The notes beneath the pieces are model-generated. The model had not been told where the DNA came from. It searched no databases and saw only the letters and a program-made list of their open reading frames with translations. A DNA stretch of 38,724 nucleotides from the NCBI GenBank assembly GCA_030057555.1, contig JASGUU010000056.1, positions 1-38,724 on the forward strand, written 5' to 3'. Within the stretch, counting starts at the first letter, position 1; each line of letters begins with the position of its first letter. A program made the translations under genes and the position numbers. The stretch comes from Bacillota bacterium. Lineage in GTDB: Bacteria; Bacillota; Clostridia; Saccharofermentanales; Fastidiosipilaceae. This document shows, in pieces, positions 7,733 through 28,217 of this stretch.

Positions 7733-7754
7733 CATGGCTCTCCGGGCTGGCACA

Positions 7755-7890
7755 TGTTCCTGTCACAACTCGCATTTTTGACATTTCCGGAGCCGCGTTT
7801 GCCAACTTTTCTAGTTGTGGCACTTGTTCCTGCCACAACCCGCATTTTTGACATTTCCGGAGCCACAGTACCCAGATCGAAAAATGCCAC
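7755..7890. repeat. Two 40-bp direct repeats spaced 70 bp, with hairpin
   Basis: Positions 7755-7794 and 7825-7864 are identical except for two bases and share the core GCATTTTTGACATTTCCGG. Between them lies a hairpin-capable stretch TGCCAACTTTTCTAGTTGTGGCA. The core closely matches the core of the 60-bp array at 15.5 kb (CATTTTTGACCACTTTCCGG), so both probably belong to one repeat family. The 7733-8080 gap between the end of the GNAT gene and the end of gatB holds nothing else I can identify. Confidence 0.75.
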
Positions 7891-8080: not shown

Positions 8081-9544
8081 TCAGTTTTCAGCTCTTACAC
8101 ACACCGGCCCCATCGGCCAGCCGATCTTCTCCCTTAGCAGGTCGATGGTCAGCTGGGGATTGGCCCTGCCTCGGGTTTGTCCCATCACCTGTCCGATGAT
8201 GGCCTGCAGGGCCTTTTCCTTCCCGGCCTGGTATTCCCTGACGGCCTTTGCACTCCTGGCCAGGACCTCGTCAATGATGGGCGACAGAAGCTCCCTGTCA
8301 TTGATCTGTTCCAGATTCTCTTCCACGACGATGTTTTCAGGAGTCCTGGCAGGATTCGCAAACATGATTTCCAGGACTTTCCTGGCACTGCCGAGGTTGA
8401 TTCTGCCGGTATCCACCATCTCGATGATCTTCGCCAGGTCCTCCGGCGCCATGTCCACCTGAAATTCCTCGGCACCTGTCAGTCTGAACAGATCGGTGAT
8501 GATGAGATTCGCCGCCGCCTTGGGATCCGCTCCCGCACTCACGGCTGCCTCAAAAAAGGTGGCCAGTTCGATAGAAGAGATCAGCTGCTCGGCATCGTAG
8601 TGGCCCAGGCCGTACTCTTCTATATACCTGTCCTTTCTGGCATCCGGCAGCTCGGGCAGGCCGTCCGTCAGCTCCCTGATTTTCTCTTCCGTTATGACAA
8701 TGGGCATCAGATCCGGTTCGGGCATAAACCTGTAGTCGGCCGCGTCTTCCTTTGTCCTCATGGAATAGGTCTTCCCGCTGTCCTGAGAAAAGCCTCTGGT
8801 TTCCTGGAACAGTTCCCCCCCTTCCTCGACAGTTCTTATCTGGCGCGCGGCCTCATACTCGATTGCCCTCTGAATGGAGCGGAAGGAATTGAGGTTCTTC
8901 ATCTCGACACGGGTACCGAAACGTTCTTCACCCGCTTCTCTGATGGACAGGTTGACATCACATCGGAAGGAACCTTCGTTCATCCTGGCATCCGAAACAC
9001 CCGTATAGGTCAGAATGGCCCGCAGCTTATGCAGATAGGCCAGGACCTCTTCCGCCGACCTCAGGTCCGCCTCGGACACGATCTCGACCAGGGGCACCCC
9101 GGCTCTGTTATTGTCAACCAGGCTGCCGAGTCCCTCTTCATGGACCAGCTTACCGGCATCCTCCTCAATATGTATCCTGTTGATGCGTATTCGCTTTTTG
9201 CCCTCGGCGGTCTCTATGTCCAGATAGCCGCCGTAGCAGATGGGGCCATCGCCCTGGGAGGTTTGAAAGCCCTTGGCCAGATCGGGATAGAAGTAGTTCT
9301 TCCGGTCCTGCCTGCCCACTCTGCGTATCTGGCAATTGGTGGCCAGGCCCGCCGTTACGGCCAGGTCCAGAGCCTTTTCGTTCAGGACCGGTGTGGCACC
9401 CGGAAGGCCCAGACAGACAGGGCAGGTGTGTTCGTTCGGTTTCCCGCCGAAAGCCGTGGAGCAGTTGCAGAACATCTTGGTGTTTGTCTTCAGTTCTACG
9501 TGAACTTCCAAACCCATGACCGTTTCATAGTTCTTTGCCATCAT
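8081..9544 (-). CDS. gatB: Aspartyl/glutamyl-tRNA amidotransferase subunit B
   Basis: A 487-residue, full-length GatB. This is the kinase/transamidase subunit that activates Asp or Glu on mischarged tRNA with ATP and replaces it with Asn or Gln using ammonia delivered by GatA. Diagnostic stretches are VMGLEVHVELKT at the N-terminus, CPVCLGLPG with the zinc-site cysteines, HIEEDAGKLVHE, LVDNNRAGVPLVEIV, and MNEGSFRCDVNLSI. A C-terminal YqeY-like tail ends near INDRELLSPIIDEVLARS and the final helices. It looks fully intact. The start codon ATG 9544 overlaps the TGA of the gatA-like gene (ATGA), so translation is coupled. It is the last gene of the T-box operon. Confidence 0.96.
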   Translation of the reverse strand: MMAKNYETVMGLEVHVELKTNTKMFCNCSTAFGGKPNEHTCPVCLGLPGATPVLNEKALDLAVTAGLATNCQIRRVGRQDRKNYFYPDLAKGFQTSQGDGPICYGGYLDIETAEGKKRIRINRIHIEEDAGKLVHEEGLGSLVDNNRAGVPLVEIVSEADLRSAEEVLAYLHKLRAILTYTGVSDARMNEGSFRCDVNLSIREAGEERFGTRVEMKNLNSFRSIQRAIEYEAARQIRTVEEGGELFQETRGFSQDSGKTYSMRTKEDAADYRFMPEPDLMPIVITEEKIRELTDGLPELPDARKDRYIEEYGLGHYDAEQLISSIELATFFEAAVSAGADPKAAANLIITDLFRLTGAEEFQVDMAPEDLAKIIEMVDTGRINLGSARKVLEIMFANPARTPENIVVEENLEQINDRELLSPIIDEVLARSAKAVREYQAGKEKALQAIIGQVMGQTRGRANPQLTIDLLREKIGWPMGPVCVRAEN

Positions 9545-10707
9545 TCTTCACTTTCCAGTCGGGAAACGATCTGCCAGGCAAACGCCAGCAGCCGCCTGTC
9601 GTTAAAGGCTCTGCTGGTAATCAGCAGACCCACTTCTCCAAAGGGCATTGATATGACGGGCAGCCCGGCCAGATACAGGGCGGCCGTATAACGCAGATCT
9701 ACCGGAGCAAGCAAAAATTCATGGCTCTCGAGCCGCTTTTCGATTTCTTCCTTGACCATGGTTCTGGCCTTCATGGCCTGGACATAGTAAGGTTCGTATT
9801 TCCCTTCACTTAAACAAAAGTTGCCGCTGATGATTTTTTTCTGAACCTCCCGGCCCAGTCCTGCGGTCCTGGATTTTTTATACAACTCCTCAACACTGTC
9901 ATACTCCCCGGCGCGGTAACCGAAACCGATACCGTCATATCTCTCCATATTGGTCGCAAATTCACCACTGGAAAGAATTTCGTGGGCTGGCAGGGCATAT
10001 GGCAGAGACTCCAGCAGGACCTCAGCCATGGGCAGGTTCAGTCGTTCGGAGAATCCTGCCGTCCCGTTGATAACGGCGGGTCTGACGCTCTGTAAATCCA
10101 TATCCTCCAGCGTTTGAAAATCCGCATCACCGGGAAACGTCGTGCCGTCTCTCTCATCCTGGCCGGCCACCATGTCCATGGCTACGGGAATCTTGGCAAA
10201 GCTTCCTGCCAGGATACCCACCCGATCCATGGATGAGGCCACGGGAATGACCCCGTATCTTGAAACGATGCCGTAGCTGGGCGAATAGGCAAAAAGTCCG
10301 TATTCCCGGGCGCCTGCATGGATATCGCCCCGGTGATCGGCTGCAAAGCCCAGGATGCCTTCGCCGTGGGCTACCGCGGCACAGGTGCCGTATGGATTCT
10401 CGGTCTCACCCACACCAAATTCTCTGGTTATGGTCTTTCCCAGTATGACTCCCCCGGCCTTCCTGACCCTTTCGACAACAGTAGCGTCAAACGGAGGAAT
10501 ATAGTTATCCAGCATCCTGGAATTCGCCGTAGTTCTGATGCCTCTGGTGGAAATCAGATCGGAAAAAACGACGGGAAACGGAGATTTGTTATCCACCAGC
10601 GCTTCCAGGGCCTGCTCCCGGCTTATGGTTCTGTAGGCTTTGATTTCGGCATTGTCTTTTTCTATCCTGTCGAAATACGCCGCGTATTTCTGTCTGGCAG
10701 CCATCAT
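9541..10707 (-). CDS. GatA homologue lacking the amidase catalytic triad
   Basis: 388 residues starting at ATG 10707 (GGGAGG ribosome binding site), 13 bases after the aspS-gatC stop. It is clearly GatA-derived: TRGIRTTANSRMLDNYIPPF, DATVVERVRKAGGVILGKT, SYGIVSRYGVIPVASSMDRVG and MVAGQDERDGTTFPG all align with GatA. GatA is usually about 485 residues and hydrolyses glutamine with a Lys / cis-Ser / Ser triad. Here the triad Lys position (AIKDN in GatA) reads VFSDL with Ser49. The PGGSSGGS loop is deleted (ENPYG joins directly to TCAAVAHG). The DTGGS nucleophile position reads DHRGD (124-128). About 100 residues are also missing overall. It cannot be a normal glutaminase, yet its frame is intact and it is coupled to gatB, so it is probably a structural or altered subunit rather than a pseudogene. 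Confidence 0.85.
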   Translation of the reverse strand: MMAARQKYAAYFDRIEKDNAEIKAYRTISREQALEALVDNKSPFPVVFSDLISTRGIRTTANSRMLDNYIPPFDATVVERVRKAGGVILGKTITREFGVGETENPYGTCAAVAHGEGILGFAADHRGDIHAGAREYGLFAYSPSYGIVSRYGVIPVASSMDRVGILAGSFAKIPVAMDMVAGQDERDGTTFPGDADFQTLEDMDLQSVRPAVINGTAGFSERLNLPMAEVLLESLPYALPAHEILSSGEFATNMERYDGIGFGYRAGEYDSVEELYKKSRTAGLGREVQKKIISGNFCLSEGKYEPYYVQAMKARTMVKEEIEKRLESHEFLLAPVDLRYTAALYLAGLPVISMPFGEVGLLITSRAFNDRRLLAFAWQIVSRLESEE

Positions 10708-10720
10708 GCTTTCCTCCCTT

Positions 10721-12826
10721 CTACTCTTCTTCCATGATTCCAGGCACGAGTATGTAGCCCTCTTCCGTCCTGTCGGTACCTGCGAACAGCTCTTCCGCCG
10801 TAAACTCCACCCTGACTTCATCTCTTCTGGTGGCATTCATTCTGGGCCGGACATTTACCGTGGGCTGGTATTGACCGAGGTCGAGAGCCCTCAGGTCTGC
10901 TGTCAGATCCATGAAATGATCCAGGTGCTTCTGAAAACTCGAGCGCGAACGATCGTCCAGATACAGCATGGACATCTCGGCATACGTCTCGAGCTCTCGA
11001 GTCTCTTCCTGCTCGACCTGTGCAGCAGGCACCGCGCCCTTTATACTTCCGTCCGCCAGAGCCACGGCAATGCCCAGGTCCTGCAGCTGCCGGTCATCCA
11101 CCGGGCTTGGTGCATTGGTCAGGAGACACTCGGCCTCCTTGTTCTTCGGAAAGGCAATCACCTCCCGGATGCTGTCCTCCTGGGCCATCAGCATGATCAG
11201 GCGGTCGAGACCGAAGGCAAAGCCCCCGTGCGGCGGCGTCCCATACTGGAAGGCCTGAATAATATGGCCGAAGCGGCTGTCAATCTCTTCTTCGCTGATG
11301 CCCAGCAGCCTGAACATCCTTTCCTGGATATCCGGACGATAGATTCTCAGAGAGCCGGAACCCAGCTCGACACCGTTCAGGACCACATCATAGGATTCGG
11401 CCTTGACACTCAGAGGGTCGGACTCCATCTTTTCCAGGTCTTCGGCCAGCGGCATGGTAAAGGGATGGTGCATGGCGACATACCTGTTTTCCTCTGCCGA
11501 ATATTCAAACTGCGGGAAGTCCACCACCATCAGGAACTTGAAGTCATCCTTTTTGCGCAGGCCGAGCATGTCTCCGATATCGAGCCGCAGCGAACCCAGC
11601 GTCCTGCAGATGACGTCCAGCCTGTCGGCACAGAAGATCAGAAAATCCCCCGGCTCCACGGCCATTTTCCGGAGCAGGGCCTCCATGTCTTCCCCGGAAA
11701 AATACTTGGTCAGGATGGTTCTCAGATTCCTGTCTGCATCGATGCCTATCCAGGCCATGCCCCTGGCCCCATAGGAAATGGCCTTTTCCGTCAGCTCATC
11801 TATTTCGGTTCTGCTCAGGGCATTGCCGCCCTTGATGTTGATGGAACGTACCGCACCGCCGGACTTGATGGCATCGGCAAAGACCTTGAAACGGGAATGT
11901 CTGACTTCTTCTGTCACATCCACAATCTTCATGCCGAAACGCATATCCGGCTTGTCAGTGCCGTAGGAATCCATGGCCTCCTGATATGTCATTCTGGGGA
12001 AGGGCTCCCGGAATTCGATGCCCAGGGCTTCCTTGAAGATCGTTTTGAACATGTCTTCCAGCAGGTCCAGTATTTCTTCCTTGCTCAAAAAGGAAGTCTC
12101 CATGTCGACCTGCGTGAATTCCGGCTGTCTGTCCGCCCGCAGATCTTCATCCCTGAAGCATCTGGCAATCTGATAGTAGCGGTCGAATCCCCCCACCATA
12201 AGCAGCTGCTTAAACACCTGAGGCGACTGGGGCAGGGCATAAAACTCACCCGGATGTATGCGGCTGGGTACCAGATAGTCCCTGGCGCCTTCCGGTGTGC
12301 TTTTGGTCAGAATCGGAGTTTCCACCTCCATAAATTCGTGGTCTTCCAGATAGTTGCGGATGCTTTTTACGGTTTTGTTTCTCAGGAGAAAATTCTGATA
12401 CATTTTCGGACGCCTTAAATCCAGGTATCGGAATTTGATCCGCAAATCTTCTCTTACACTGACATGATCATCGATCGGAAACGGCAGGGCTCTGGCCTCG
12501 GAATAGACGGCGAATTCTTCGGCCTTCAGCTCCACGGTTCCCGTGGGAATCTTCGGGTTGTATGTCTCCTCGTCCCTCTCTCTCACCGTGCCTCTGACGG
12601 CTATCACATACTCGGAGCGCAGGCGTTCGACGGAGCGAAACTGCTCTTCCGTGAAATATCGAAGGTCAAAGACAACCTGCAGGACTCCTGTCCTGTCTCT
12701 CAGGTCGATAAAAATCACGCCGCCCATATCCCTGCTGGTCTGTACCCAGCCCATGACGGTAGCCCTGTTATTGATGTCGGCTTCCCTGACTCTTCCGCAA
12801 TAGTGGCTTCTGGAAAAGTCCCTCAT
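10721..12826 (-). CDS. aspS: Aspartyl-tRNA synthetase fused to GatC
   Basis: 701 residues. Residues 1 to ~590 are a bacterial-type AspRS: anticodon-binding OB fold at the N-terminus (MGWVQTSRDMGGVIFIDLRD), class II motif 2 in CFRDEDLRADRQPEFTQVD, the bacterial insertion domain, and motif 3 in GFAFGLDRLIML. The last ~95 residues match GatC, the small linker subunit of GatCAB: EMSMLYLDDRSRSSFQKHL, LRALDLGQYQPTVNVRP and EEGYILVPGIME. Fusion would tether the charging enzyme to the amidotransferase that converts Asp-tRNA(Asn) to Asn-tRNA(Asn). At the site of E. coli Leu30, often His in non-discriminating enzymes, it has Met34, which is not decisive. ATG 12826 is preceded by AGGAG. The GC content of this operon is visibly lower than that of the flanking genes. 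Confidence 0.93.
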   Translation of the reverse strand: MRDFSRSHYCGRVREADINNRATVMGWVQTSRDMGGVIFIDLRDRTGVLQVVFDLRYFTEEQFRSVERLRSEYVIAVRGTVRERDEETYNPKIPTGTVELKAEEFAVYSEARALPFPIDDHVSVREDLRIKFRYLDLRRPKMYQNFLLRNKTVKSIRNYLEDHEFMEVETPILTKSTPEGARDYLVPSRIHPGEFYALPQSPQVFKQLLMVGGFDRYYQIARCFRDEDLRADRQPEFTQVDMETSFLSKEEILDLLEDMFKTIFKEALGIEFREPFPRMTYQEAMDSYGTDKPDMRFGMKIVDVTEEVRHSRFKVFADAIKSGGAVRSINIKGGNALSRTEIDELTEKAISYGARGMAWIGIDADRNLRTILTKYFSGEDMEALLRKMAVEPGDFLIFCADRLDVICRTLGSLRLDIGDMLGLRKKDDFKFLMVVDFPQFEYSAEENRYVAMHHPFTMPLAEDLEKMESDPLSVKAESYDVVLNGVELGSGSLRIYRPDIQERMFRLLGISEEEIDSRFGHIIQAFQYGTPPHGGFAFGLDRLIMLMAQEDSIREVIAFPKNKEAECLLTNAPSPVDDRQLQDLGIAVALADGSIKGAVPAAQVEQEETRELETYAEMSMLYLDDRSRSSFQKHLDHFMDLTADLRALDLGQYQPTVNVRPRMNATRRDEVRVEFTAEELFAGTDRTEEGYILVPGIMEEE

Positions 12827-12840
12827 TCCATTTCACTCCT

Positions 12841-13150
12841 TCAAATAAAAAAACCTTCGCTCCCCAAGGGACGAAGGTTCAAGTTCGCGGTACCACCCAA
12901 ATTGACAGATCCTCGAAGGATCTGCCCACTCTTTCATGCCTTAAAGCGGCAACAACTTCCAGGCCTACCGGCATGGCTCATGGCTTTCGAAACCCCTCGA
13001 CAGCATGCGTCAGCTTTCGGTTGGAGACTCCCGGATGTTCTTCAGCTGCTCTTCCGTGTCGAACTCCCACCATCATCGACTCGCTGAACCGTCCAAACCG
13101 CCTACTCTTCCGTTCACAGTCTTTATCTTGGATTATGTGATTCAAAAAAT
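12841..13150 (-). promoter_or_regulatory. T-box riboswitch controlling aspS-gatC, gatA-like and gatB
   Basis: The leader shows the hallmark T-box sequence GGGTGGTACCGCG (12898-12886), which holds the antiterminator bulge that pairs with an uncharged tRNA acceptor end. It is followed by a terminator stem AACCTTCG / CGAAGGTT (12879-12852) and a run of seven U. Upstream, stem I has the expected GGAAGAGTA and AGCGA elements. The probable specifier region reads GAAGAACATCC: AAC (13039-13037) would select tRNA(Asn), and the overlapping GAA would select tRNA(Glu). Either fits an operon for tRNA-dependent amidation. Uncharged tRNA should prevent termination and switch the operon on. T-box identity is very sure; the codon assignment is moderate. 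Confidence 0.93.
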
Positions 13151-15840: not shown

Positions 15841-16016
15841 GGAGCCACCCTGCAGTCATATTCTCAGTCACATTCCACCGCCCAGCTCGGCAACCAGGTC
15901 AGTGTATCGCTGCGAGTCAAAGTCATGGCGTTCAGAGGCAAAGCCCGGCATAATGACCGCAGAAGCCGCAGACAGCGACCGCCACCCGCCGCTCACCATC
16001 CGCAGAAGAGGTTCCC

Positions 16017-17087
16017 ATGACAGCGAAACTTACGAGCCGCGAACGCTTCCGGCGCATGTACGAGCACCGCGACGCCGACCGCGTCCCGATCATCGACTCC
16101 CCCTGGGAGGGCACGCTGCTGCGCTGGCGCTCCGAAGGTCTCGGTGGGCGCGACTGGGTCGAATACTTCGACATCGACCGCGTCGCCCACATCGGCGTCG
16201 ACTCCTCCCCCCGCTACCCGGCGGCCACCGTCTCCCTCGACGAGCGCTTCCACACCTACACCACCCCCTACGGCGTCACGCTCAAGCAGCTGCGCGTCCC
16301 CGACTCCACGCCCGAATATGTCGCCTTCACCGTCACCGACCCCGACAGCTGGCGCGCCGCCAAAGTCCGCATGACCCCTACCTCCGACCGCATCGACTGG
16401 GCCCGCCTCGAGCGCCTCTATCCTGTCTGGGAACGGGAAGGCCACTGGATCACGGGCGACTTCTGGTTCGGCTTCGATGTCACCCACTCCTGGTTCGTCG
16501 GCACCGAAACCCTGCTCATCGCCCTCGCCGAGGAGCCCGACTGGTGCCGCGAGATGTTCGAGCATTTCCTCGACATGAACATTGCCCTCTTCGAACAGAT
16601 CCTCGCGGCCGGCTACTGCCTCGACGAGATCAACTGGCCTGATGACATGGGCTACAAGCAGAACCAGTTCTTTTCCCGGCGCATGTATCAGGACCTCCTG
16701 CTGCCGGTTCAGAAGCGCGCCATCGACTGGGCGCACAGCCACGGCATCCGGGCGCGCCTGCACTCCTGCGGCGACATCCGCCCCTTCGTCCCCCTCCTCG
16801 TCGCTGCCGGACTCGACGCCCTCAACCCCCTCGAGGTGAAAGCCGGCATGGACCCCCATGCACTTAAGGCCCAATACGGCGACCGCCTCGTCCTTCACGG
16901 CGGCCTCAACGCCGTGCTCTTCGCGGATACGGAGGCCACCATCGCCGAAATCCGGCGGCTGCTGCCCGTCATGAAGCAGAACGGCGGCTATATCTTCAGC
17001 TCCGACCACTCGGTGCCGAACACCGTCAGCCTCGAGGAAATGGCGGCCATCATCCGGACGGCGAAGGAATACGGCAGCTACAGCTGA
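16017..17087 (+). CDS. Uroporphyrinogen decarboxylase-family (MtaA/MtbA-like) protein
   Basis: 356 residues with the UroD/cobalamin-dependent methyltransferase barrel fold: SRERFRRMYEHRDADRVPI at the N-terminus, RLHSCGDIRPFVPLLVAAGL with the zinc-type His-x-Cys, LNPLEVKAGMDPHALKA, LVLHGGLNAVLFAD and FSSDHSVPNTVSLEE at the end. Such proteins outside haem synthesis usually move methyl groups from methylated compounds to a corrinoid protein or coenzyme. No corrinoid protein or activase lies beside it and there are no other haem genes, so haem synthesis is unlikely. ATG 16017 has GAGG six bases upstream. It stands alone, facing the GH9 gene across a repeat-bearing gap. Confidence 0.82.
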   Translation: MTAKLTSRERFRRMYEHRDADRVPIIDSPWEGTLLRWRSEGLGGRDWVEYFDIDRVAHIGVDSSPRYPAATVSLDERFHTYTTPYGVTLKQLRVPDSTPEYVAFTVTDPDSWRAAKVRMTPTSDRIDWARLERLYPVWEREGHWITGDFWFGFDVTHSWFVGTETLLIALAEEPDWCREMFEHFLDMNIALFEQILAAGYCLDEINWPDDMGYKQNQFFSRRMYQDLLLPVQKRAIDWAHSHGIRARLHSCGDIRPFVPLLVAAGLDALNPLEVKAGMDPHALKAQYGDRLVLHGGLNAVLFADTEATIAEIRRLLPVMKQNGGYIFSSDHSVPNTVSLEEMAAIIRTAKEYGSYS

Positions 17088-17171
17088 CCCGGCGGCAAAG
17101 ACCTCACATGAAGCAGCCGGCGAACTTCCTGCCCGGCGGTGACAGGGCCTGCCGGGCGCGCGCGTTCCCGG

Positions 17172-17332
17172 TTGCATAAGAGGGTCGTGAGCACGAATTC
17201 AACTTCTACACACTTTTGCGTGTATATCTCGGGTTTTTGAGCGCAAAACCACCACTCGCACCATATTTTGTTCAAAATCTCGACTTCTGCGCACCCCAAG
17301 TCGAATTCCTGTGCACTGCATAATGTACCCAG
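17172..17332 (+). repeat. Dispersed intergenic repeat, copy A
   Basis: About 160 bp that match the element at 28047-28217. Shared words in the same order are GGGTCGTGAGC, TTCAA, a hairpin around GTGTATA, TTGAGC, AAACCACCACTCGCA, TGCGCA, TCGAAT, TGCACTGCATA (copy B TGCACATTGCATACT) and TGTACCCAG. It lies between the convergent ends of the UroD-family and GH9 genes. Confidence 0.8.
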
Positions 17333-25990: not shown

Positions 25991-26350
25991 CCCTTTACGA
26001 AAACGCAGTGCATAAACAATGAAATAACATAATGCTTGATGATAAATATAATAGCCCTGCTGCGGCTCTCTATTGTTTTGCCGTTTCACATGCCACTTGC
26101 CGCATCATGAAACGCAATTGTTATCTGGCGATTATTTCCGGACGAAACTTTCACGCTCCCCATCGCCCCGTTCCAGCGGCCGGGTAGAGCAGGCGGAGCT
26201 CCGGAAGCGCTGCTGGCAGACTCGGATTTCGCGATGATGAAGTCTGGTGAAGAAACTGTGACAGGCGGCTTAAATTACATGCGGGTCCGCCTGCCGGCAG
26301 TCAGAAAAGTGTAAGGTGACAGGGAAGCATTCATCCAACCATGCGAACAA
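25991..26350. other. Upstream region of the 5'-nucleotidase gene
   Basis: An AT-rich patch around 26010-26060, followed by GC-rich sequence, holds no gene I recognise. The promoter of the 5'-nucleotidase should lie here, but I could not assign a convincing -35/-10 pair. GGGAGG at 26351-26356 is the ribosome binding site. Confidence 0.35.
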
Positions 26351-26363
26351 GGGAGGTACTCTC

Positions 26364-27941
26364 ATGCGCAAACATCTGACCCGCGTTCTGGGCTTCATCC
26401 TGGCACTCGGACTCTTCTGTGGTCTGATCCCGACCGCGGTGATCCTGGCGGCGGACGAGCCGGACATCAAGCAGATCTACATTCTGCACACGAATGACAT
26501 GCACGGCCGCGCCATCGGCGACAACGGTCCGGGCAAGGACGGTCTGCCGGTCACGAACGGCTCCATCGGCTACTCCCGTTACAAGACCCTGATCGAGACC
26601 CTGCGCGAAGTCAATGAGGACCGTGTCCTCGTGCTGGATGCGGGCGATACGACGCACGGGACGAACTTTGCCTCGCTCTCCAAAGGACAGAGCATCATCC
26701 GTCTGATGAACGATCTCGGCGTGTCGGCGATGGCGCTCGGCAACCACGAGTTCAACTATGGCCAGAAGGGCATCGAGGACCTGGCCAACGAGGCCGACTT
26801 CCCCTTCCTGGCGGCGAACATCGTGCGCACGGAGGATGGCAAGTGCCCCTATGACGAGCAGCTGATCCTCGAAGTGGACGGCATCAAGATCGGCATCTTC
26901 GGCGTCTCGACGCCGGAAACCAAGGTCAAGGCCAGCCCGAAGCATACCGAGGGGCTCGACTTTATCGATCCCGCCATCACCGCCGCCGAGCAGGTTGCGG
27001 CCCTCGAGGAGGAGACGGATGCCATCGTCATGCTCGCACATCTGGGTATGGATGCCGAATCCGAATACACTTCCACCTATGTGGTCGACCAGGTCGACGG
27101 CATCGATGTCATCATCGACGGCCACAGCCACCACAGCCTGCCCGAGGGCGAGCTCCACAGCGAGACCCTGATCTGCCAGACCGGCAACTACCTCGAGAAT
27201 GTCGGGCTCGTAACGCTGACCTTCACCGACGGTGAGCTGACGGAGACCACGGCCCGCCTGATCAGCTTCCTCGAAGCCCAGCAGTACGCTCCGGACGAGG
27301 ATGTCGACGCGGCGATCGCAGCGATCGAAGAAGAGAACCAGCGCATCACCTCGGTCGAGGTGGGCGAGCTGGCGACCAAACTGGACGGCGAGCGCGAGGA
27401 TGTCAGAACGCGTGAGACAAACCTCGGCGACCTGATCACAGACGCCATGCTCGCCGCGACCGGTGCGGACGTGGTCATCACCAACGGCGGCGGCATCCGC
27501 GCTTCGATCGAGGCCGGCACGATCACGATGGGCGACCTGCTGACGGTCCTGCCCTTCGGCAACATGGTCACCGTGATCGAGGTCACGGGCGCTGATATCC
27601 GGGCGGCCCTGGAGTTCGGTACGGACAGCTACCCCGAGACGGCGGGCAAGTTCCCCCACGTCGCCGGCATGAGCTATGAACTGCATAAGGCCGATGACGG
27701 CTACACCGTCGAGAACATCAAGGTCGGCGATGCCGATCTCGACGATGCGGCAACCTATAAGCTCGCCACCAACGACTTCATGGCCGAGGGCGGCGACGGC
27801 TACGAGATGTTCGCCCAGAAGCCTCTGCTGCTGCTCGAAGGTCTGATGGTCGACATTCTCCGCGACTATGTCGTGGAGCTGATTGCGGAAGGCGGCGCAC
27901 TGGATGTCGCCGTGGACGGCCGCATCACCGTCGTCGAGTAG
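26364..27941 (+). CDS. Secreted 5'-nucleotidase / 2',3'-cyclic phosphodiesterase family
   Basis: 525 residues from ATG 26364, with GGGAGG seven bases upstream. A Sec signal peptide covers residues 1-30 (basic RKH, hydrophobic FILALGLFCGLIPTAVIL, then AADE). The two-domain UshA/YfkN-like fold follows. The metallophosphatase domain has metal ligands in HTNDMHGR (Asp45, His47), LDAGDTTHG (Asp92), GNHEFNYG (Asn127, His128), LAHLGMD and DGHSHH. The C-terminal substrate domain contains NGGGIRASIE and PFGNMVTVIEVTG. It would dephosphorylate extracellular nucleotides for purine and phosphate salvage. No sortase motif or membrane anchor is visible at the C-terminus, so it is probably released. It is a single-gene unit followed by a strong terminator. 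Confidence 0.93.
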   Translation: MRKHLTRVLGFILALGLFCGLIPTAVILAADEPDIKQIYILHTNDMHGRAIGDNGPGKDGLPVTNGSIGYSRYKTLIETLREVNEDRVLVLDAGDTTHGTNFASLSKGQSIIRLMNDLGVSAMALGNHEFNYGQKGIEDLANEADFPFLAANIVRTEDGKCPYDEQLILEVDGIKIGIFGVSTPETKVKASPKHTEGLDFIDPAITAAEQVAALEEETDAIVMLAHLGMDAESEYTSTYVVDQVDGIDVIIDGHSHHSLPEGELHSETLICQTGNYLENVGLVTLTFTDGELTETTARLISFLEAQQYAPDEDVDAAIAAIEEENQRITSVEVGELATKLDGEREDVRTRETNLGDLITDAMLAATGADVVITNGGGIRASIEAGTITMGDLLTVLPFGNMVTVIEVTGADIRAALEFGTDSYPETAGKFPHVAGMSYELHKADDGYTVENIKVGDADLDDAATYKLATNDFMAEGGDGYEMFAQKPLLLLEGLMVDILRDYVVELIAEGGALDVAVDGRITVVE

Positions 27942-27971
27942 GCTTCCAGGAAGCGTCCAGCCTTCAACCAC

Positions 27972-28004
27972 GACGAGGCGACCCCGCGGGGCCGCCTCGT
28001 TTTT
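27972..28004 (+). terminator. Intrinsic terminator after the 5'-nucleotidase gene
   Basis: CGAGGCG-A-CCCC pairs with GGGG-C-CGCCTCG around a tiny loop, directly followed by TTTTT. It begins about 30 bases after the stop codon. Confidence 0.82.
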
Positions 28005-28046
28005 GGTGTGCCGGCCAGCCCGGGCGACTGAGCGCTTTGCCTGCTG

Positions 28047-28217
28047 CATGGAGGGGTCGTGAGCGATCATTCAATTTATGCACGGGCACTCGCGTATAAA
28101 TCGAATAATTGAGCCCCAAACCACCACTCGCAGCGAATTATGTCCCAGTAATTCGAGTTGCGCACGCTGATGCATGTACTACTCGAATACCTGCACATTG
28201 CATACTGTACCCAGTCT
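28047..28217 (+). repeat. Dispersed intergenic repeat, copy B
   Basis: About 170 bp homologous over its whole length to the copy at 17172-17332: GGGTCGTGAGC, TTTATGC...GCGTATAAA (hairpin arms), TTGAGC, AAACCACCACTCGCAGC, TTGCGCA, CTCGAATACCTGCAC and ACTGTACCCAG. It follows the terminator of the 5'-nucleotidase gene by about 45 bases. Confidence 0.8.

Follow-up and report, generated by a model that had tools for sequence, protein, structure and literature searches.

A conserved AspRS-GatC/GatA/GatB operon whose GatA lacks the glutaminase site: a probable ammonia-fed cassette for tRNA-dependent asparagine synthesis in Clostridia

Clostridium acetobutylicum reportedly carries an AspRS-GatCAB operon under the control of a tRNA-Asn T-box. 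Its asparagine synthesis is tRNA-dependent, as in Deinococcus and Thermus, which make asparagine on tRNA beside AsnRS and GlnRS; the same is supported for Bdellovibrio (PMC4206432). In the bacterial GatCAB enzymes of the literature cited here, a glutaminase is coupled to a transamidase. We describe a related operon in a stretch of 38,724 nucleotides (the window), which corresponds to contig 56 of a draft genome of 2.9 Mb (96% complete, genome G000) of a Fastidiosipilaceae bacterium. This operon combines an AspRS-GatC fusion, an intact GatB and, between them, a GatA homologue that has lost its glutaminase site (hereafter the variant GatA). We consider it probable that the T-box leader and the three genes form a cassette for tRNA-dependent asparagine synthesis, in which a glutaminase-dead GatA would act as scaffold and free ammonia as amide donor. 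The elements are transcribed from the minus strand in the following order, with the leader parts listed after the leader:

12864 to 13126, minus strand: T-box leader (RF00230) 5' of the operon, also present in a second species of the genus (the congener); 105.5 bits, E 3e-24
13037 to 13039, minus strand: predicted specifier codon of the T-box, AAC (Asn), located by means of the Rfam alignment, the same in the congener
12886 to 12898, minus strand: T-box sequence GGGTGGTACCGCG, antiterminator, predicted to pair with the tRNA acceptor end
12847 to 12879, minus strand: intrinsic terminator of the T-box, a hairpin followed by T7
10721 to 12826, minus strand: aspS-gatC fusion, an additional AspRS of the bacterial type that carries GatC as its C-terminal domain; curated AspRS and GatC models passed
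9541 to 10707, minus strand: variant gatA, encoding a 388-residue homologue of GatA that lacks Lys79, Ser178, the loop with Ser154 and the residues that bind glutamine; predicted GatA fold
8081 to 9544, minus strand: gatB, intact transamidase/kinase subunit with an ATGA overlap with the variant gatA; GatB models passed

The initial annotation of the window had claimed that this GatA homologue lost all three catalytic residues of the amidase while being kept in frame between aspS-gatC and gatB, and both statements hold. In an alignment to Staphylococcus aureus GatA (2df4; catalytic residues Lys79, cis-Ser154 and Ser178), Lys79 is replaced by Ser49 and the nucleophile Ser178 by Asp128, and the PGGSSGG loop with cis-Ser154 is deleted. 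The gene starts with ATGATG behind a ribosome-binding site (AGGGAGGAAAGC), and its stop codon shares ATGA with the gatB start. The protein is indeed shortened: compared to normal GatA, several segments amounting to about 85 residues are missing (roughly 100 in the initial annotation). It scores 231 bits against the GatA model TIGR00132, well below the curated equivalog cut-off of 481, and 143 bits against PF01425.

In a survey of 188 genomes of the order, with gene content determined by family searches, we found the triad-less protein in seven genomes from three genera: the window's genus in family f1, with two species, and two genera of family f2, with five genomes. The six further copies are 62-75% identical to that of the window and free of internal stops; in all seven genomes the gene lies between an AspRS-GatC fusion and gatB and is the sole GatA-type match. 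We thus confirm the suggestion of a conserved variant, and since the frame is uninterrupted in six further genomes and under purifying selection (see below), it is not a product of chance or error. A profile search of 398 genomes sampled across the phylum yielded no further triad-less copy, with all other matches below 260 bits compared to 728 for the window protein, and wider occurrence is possible. When reference genomes were scanned with the window protein, 14 GatA homologues of 27-36% identity were retrieved, and those inspected by alignment possess the lysine and the glycine-serine loop.

Across the seven copies, the loss of Lys79 and of the Ser154 loop is universal. Loss of Ser178, whose column is D,S,L,L,L,S,L, affects five of them. 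The claim of a lost triad thus extends to the whole family for two of its residues, while a serine is present at the third position in two members. Arg358 is replaced by Lys in all copies (Lys291 in the window) and the segment around Asp425 is deleted in all; as both residues were described to bind glutamine in the yeast enzyme (PMC4027206), the glutamine-binding site is gone as well. In total, 49 of the 85 columns that are invariant in normal GatA are retained and 36 are lost. Several polar residues absent from normal GatA, among them His114, Glu243 and Lys291, are invariant in the variant GatA. They could be taken as a new amidase site that releases ammonia from glutamine or another amide, an explanation to which we give very little credence: the stretch around the old oxyanion hole and nucleophile is the only region more variable in the variant than in 30 normal GatA proteins, the Arg and Asp that bind glutamine are no longer present, and among the Ser, Cys and Lys residues near the old site only Lys291 is invariant in all seven copies. 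As parts of a candidate ammonium port, His114, Glu243 and Lys291 offer at most a lead.

The fold, in turn, is predicted to be kept. An AlphaFold2 model of the variant GatA reached a mean predicted local distance difference test score (pLDDT) of 91.7 and a predicted template modelling score (pTM) of 0.92, and its closest structures are GatA subunits of transamidosomes (3kfu_H with Z 47.0 and a root-mean-square deviation of 1.8 over 384 residues; 2df4_A with Z 45.4), while free-standing amidases match less well (Z at most 41). According to this model, the variant is a folded GatA that keeps the GatA/amidase-signature fold despite the loss of its site. The ratio of non-synonymous to synonymous substitution rates (dN/dS), calculated from unsaturated pairs, is 0.13-0.26 for the variant gatA, compared to 0.04-0.07 for gatB and 0.08-0.10 for aspS. 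The gene is under purifying selection, for which the initial annotation had proposed a test, and the alternative named there of an isolated degenerate copy among triad-bearing close relatives is contradicted by the seven triad-less copies. Decay of gatA to a pseudogene that persists through its linkage to useful genes would explain why it changes fastest of the three genes and has lost 36 of 85 invariant columns. This reading is already at odds with the low dN/dS, with seven uninterrupted copies that share the same deletions in three genera, with the confidently predicted fold, and with transfer of the gene between genera followed by its retention; we regard it as hardly tenable.

The partner proteins pass their curated models. 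GatB has conserved 95 of the 100 positions at which normal GatB does not vary, and is by this measure intact with its kinase and transamidase residues kept. In the fusion protein, the AspRS part scores 846 bits and passes the curated AspRS model, and the GatC domain reaches 49.8 bits with TIGR00135 (cut-off 47.1). The fused AspRS is of the bacterial type, with a GAD domain, and forms a clade separate from the stand-alone second AspRS that all seven operon genomes encode. It has Thr and Ile at the columns of Escherichia coli Asn82 and Met87, two columns linked to AspRS specificity by work on the Helicobacter pylori enzyme. The separate clade and these two columns suggest a non-discriminating AspRS, a specificity that cannot be read confidently from sequence. 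At the column of E. coli Leu30, where His marks some non-discriminating AspRS, the fused AspRS has Met; this criterion was not used.

The leader of the operon points to asparagine as well. With 105.5 bits in the window and 114.6 bits in the congener, both T-box leaders exceed the RF00230 gathering score of 93, and the expected parts are present: Stem I with the specifier, the T-box sequence and the terminator, all in front of an amino-acid gene. The two species share AAC as specifier, while the preceding base is different. In a survey of T-boxes, specifier codon and downstream gene agreed in every case in which the gene's function was verified (PMC2494555). The AAC codon therefore points to an asparagine-related role of the operon, which in the window's genus would be induced by uncharged tRNA-Asn through predicted binding to the T-box.

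Gene content separates translation from asparagine supply. GlnRS is encoded in all seven operon genomes and AsnRS in six, the exception being a 93% complete bin (G048) in which it was not found; the operon would thus be dispensable for the formation of Gln-tRNA and Asn-tRNA in translation. Family searches detected no AsnA in the seven genomes and no AsnB above the cut-off. A weak AsnB homologue in the window genome was rejected because it scores best as a lasso-peptide cyclase (NF033535, 333 bits, under the cut-off); it belongs to a lasso-peptide-like cluster (L101 2235-6999, G000:C12) together with an HPr-kinase-like protein, an unassigned gene and an ABC transporter. Most f1 relatives without the operon carry AsnA or AsnB, and three of three same-genus siblings without it (G043, G045, G047) have AsnA. 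Across f1, g13 and g16, an asparagine synthetase was found in none of seven genomes with the operon and in 12 of 15 without it (Fisher p = 7e-4), and within g16 in 0/4 versus 3/3 (p = 0.029); these counts are not phylogenetically independent, and the swap is seen separately in both families. AsnRS, GlnRS and GatCAB without AsnA or AsnB is the combination that characterizes the Deinococcus type, and it is present here with AsnRS unfound only in G048. The co-occurrence of the operon with AsnRS and GlnRS indicates that the cassette serves asparagine supply, and we regard its assignment to tRNA-dependent asparagine synthesis as well supported by sequence and gene content. The cassette appears to have taken the place of the ammonia-dependent AsnA.

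These data also bear on the idea that amidation was abandoned and that the proteins now form a tRNA-binding, editing or regulatory assembly, which might for example remove or hold Asp-tRNA-Asn. The lost amide-donor site speaks for such a change, as does the presence of AsnRS and GlnRS, which renders amidation dispensable for translation. Against it stand the retained catalytic columns of GatB, a T-box that reads Asn codons and the replacement of AsnA by the cassette; moreover, an AspRS without amidation would either mischarge tRNA or merely duplicate the stand-alone enzyme. We consider this explanation distinctly unlikely. Because of the AAC T-box, the AsnA swap and the intact GatB, the same applies to the different tRNA-linked reaction offered as an option in the initial annotation, which included neither the T-box, the second AspRS, the co-presence of AsnRS and GlnRS nor the horizontal transfer added here.

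The cassette has moved between genera and between families. In the GatB tree the seven members group together with a support of 100 in the Shimodaira-Hasegawa-like approximate likelihood ratio test (SH-aLRT), as sister to f2 forms with a normal GatA (96), and the tree of the fused AspRS agrees. Compared across the three genera, the fused AspRS shows 80-82% identity and the stand-alone AspRS 52-59%, and the operon has a G+C content of 55% versus 62% around it in the window, which together indicate a horizontal spread of the cassette. In all seven genomes the operon comprises the three genes only, and its neighbours are unrelated between genera. Most likely, the cassette originated from an f2-type operon, lost the glutaminase, and was then spread horizontally and retained. 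In the congener, a DUF772 transposase-domain protein is encoded directly upstream of the operon T-box (L104 10584-11375, G001:C174), which is consistent with mobility of the cassette. In the window, two copies of a 47-nt direct repeat (7748-7794 and 7818-7864, 94% identical, 70 nt apart) are located in the gap flanked by the 3' ends of a plus-strand gene and of gatB. Elsewhere in the window, two minus-strand frames of 579 and 394 amino acids (26331-28070 and 15993-17177) have zero Pfam matches.

The pathway we propose would begin with the AspRS-GatC fusion charging tRNA-Asn with aspartate. GatB would activate this aspartate with ATP and amidate it to Asn-tRNA-Asn, while the variant GatA, judging by its fold and conservation, could hold the GatC-GatA-GatB assembly together as a glutaminase-dead scaffold. 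The amide nitrogen would come from free ammonia entering where the glutaminase site used to be, or beyond it. Free ammonia was one of the options in the initial annotation and is now our leading reading. Such a reaction has a precedent in yeast GatFAB: once the glutaminase step is circumvented, this enzyme can use NH4Cl for amidation, and a mutant whose glutaminase scaffold is weakened does so better (PMC4027206). The complex could also take its ammonia from a glutaminase or asparaginase supplied in trans and docked on the variant GatA. Other amidotransferases can have separate glutaminase subunits, and the variant keeps a folded surface for docking; the operon comprises nothing but its three genes in all seven genomes, with neighbours that are unrelated between genera, and the window genome contains no second Amidase-family protein, other glutaminase families not having been searched. 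We therefore see a partner glutaminase as unlikely. A borrowed second GatA, suggested originally, is not supported, given the same search and the single GatA-type match in each of the other six genomes. A search for AsnRS or a complete second GatCAB, as the initial annotation proposed, thus revealed AsnRS in six of seven genomes and no second GatA.

Several points weigh against an ammonia-fed asparagine pathway. Acceptance of tRNA-Asn by the fused AspRS is a step that we infer, and free ammonia is put forward as donor solely from the absence of other candidates. At the five f2 loci no T-box was detected, which limits this signal to the window's genus. In two g13 siblings (G022 and G023), which encode AsnRS, the operon, AsnA and AsnB were all absent from the search results; they are likely asparagine auxotrophs, so that the group may also include cells unable to make asparagine. 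The variant gatA evolves faster than gatB and aspS, and all genomes are draft bins. No tRNA-Asn gene was found in the bins of the window genome and of G049, so its U1-A72 pair cannot be read. Among the tRNA genes read, these two bins also lack tRNA-Ile(GAT) and tRNA-Ala(TGC); the missing genes are probably rRNA-operon-adjacent genes lost from the bins. With these reservations, we lean towards a natural glutaminase-free, ammonia-fed AspRS-GatC/GatA/GatB transamidosome that is mobile and replaces AsnA, with the variant GatA as scaffold and possibly, through His114, as ammonium port. We found no report of a triad-less GatA in the open-access literature, which does not prove that none exists. If our reading is true, this conserved glutaminase-less lineage would set the role of GatA as ammonia source apart from its role as scaffold, allow a direct test of what the ammonia channel does, and provide a ready-made system for ammonia-dependent tRNA amidation.

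Among described systems, C. acetobutylicum is similar in that a single operon under a tRNA-Asn T-box encodes an additional AspRS together with GatCAB and serves asparagine synthesis; the window operon differs from it by the AspRS-GatC fusion and possibly by its GatA without glutaminase site. Deinococcus radiodurans and Thermus thermophilus share GlnRS, AsnRS, two AspRS, GatCAB and the absence of an asparagine synthetase (PMC4206432, PMC6523644), whereas their second AspRS is archaeal-type, unlike the bacterial-type, GatC-fused enzyme of the window, and their GatA is a glutaminase. The f2 genomes G014, G017, G024, G030 and G031 have AspRS-GatC, GatA and GatB in identical order and branch as a sister clade in both trees, that of GatB and that of AspRS. 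Their GatA, in contrast, has the full triad, and these genomes are without AsnRS, so that the operon would be needed for translation there. Human carbamoyl phosphate synthetase 1 has likewise retained a dead glutaminase domain, its fold kept after loss of a catalytic residue, and takes free ammonia from outside (PMC4655335); as its fold and pathway are unrelated, this is an analogy of function only. AsnA, which the operon replaces in sibling genomes, makes asparagine from ammonia as well, but it is tRNA-independent and not related to GatCAB. The ammonia dependence of AsnA (PMC4206432) suggests why glutamine may have become dispensable for the cassette: relatives already used free ammonia as the source of asparagine nitrogen.
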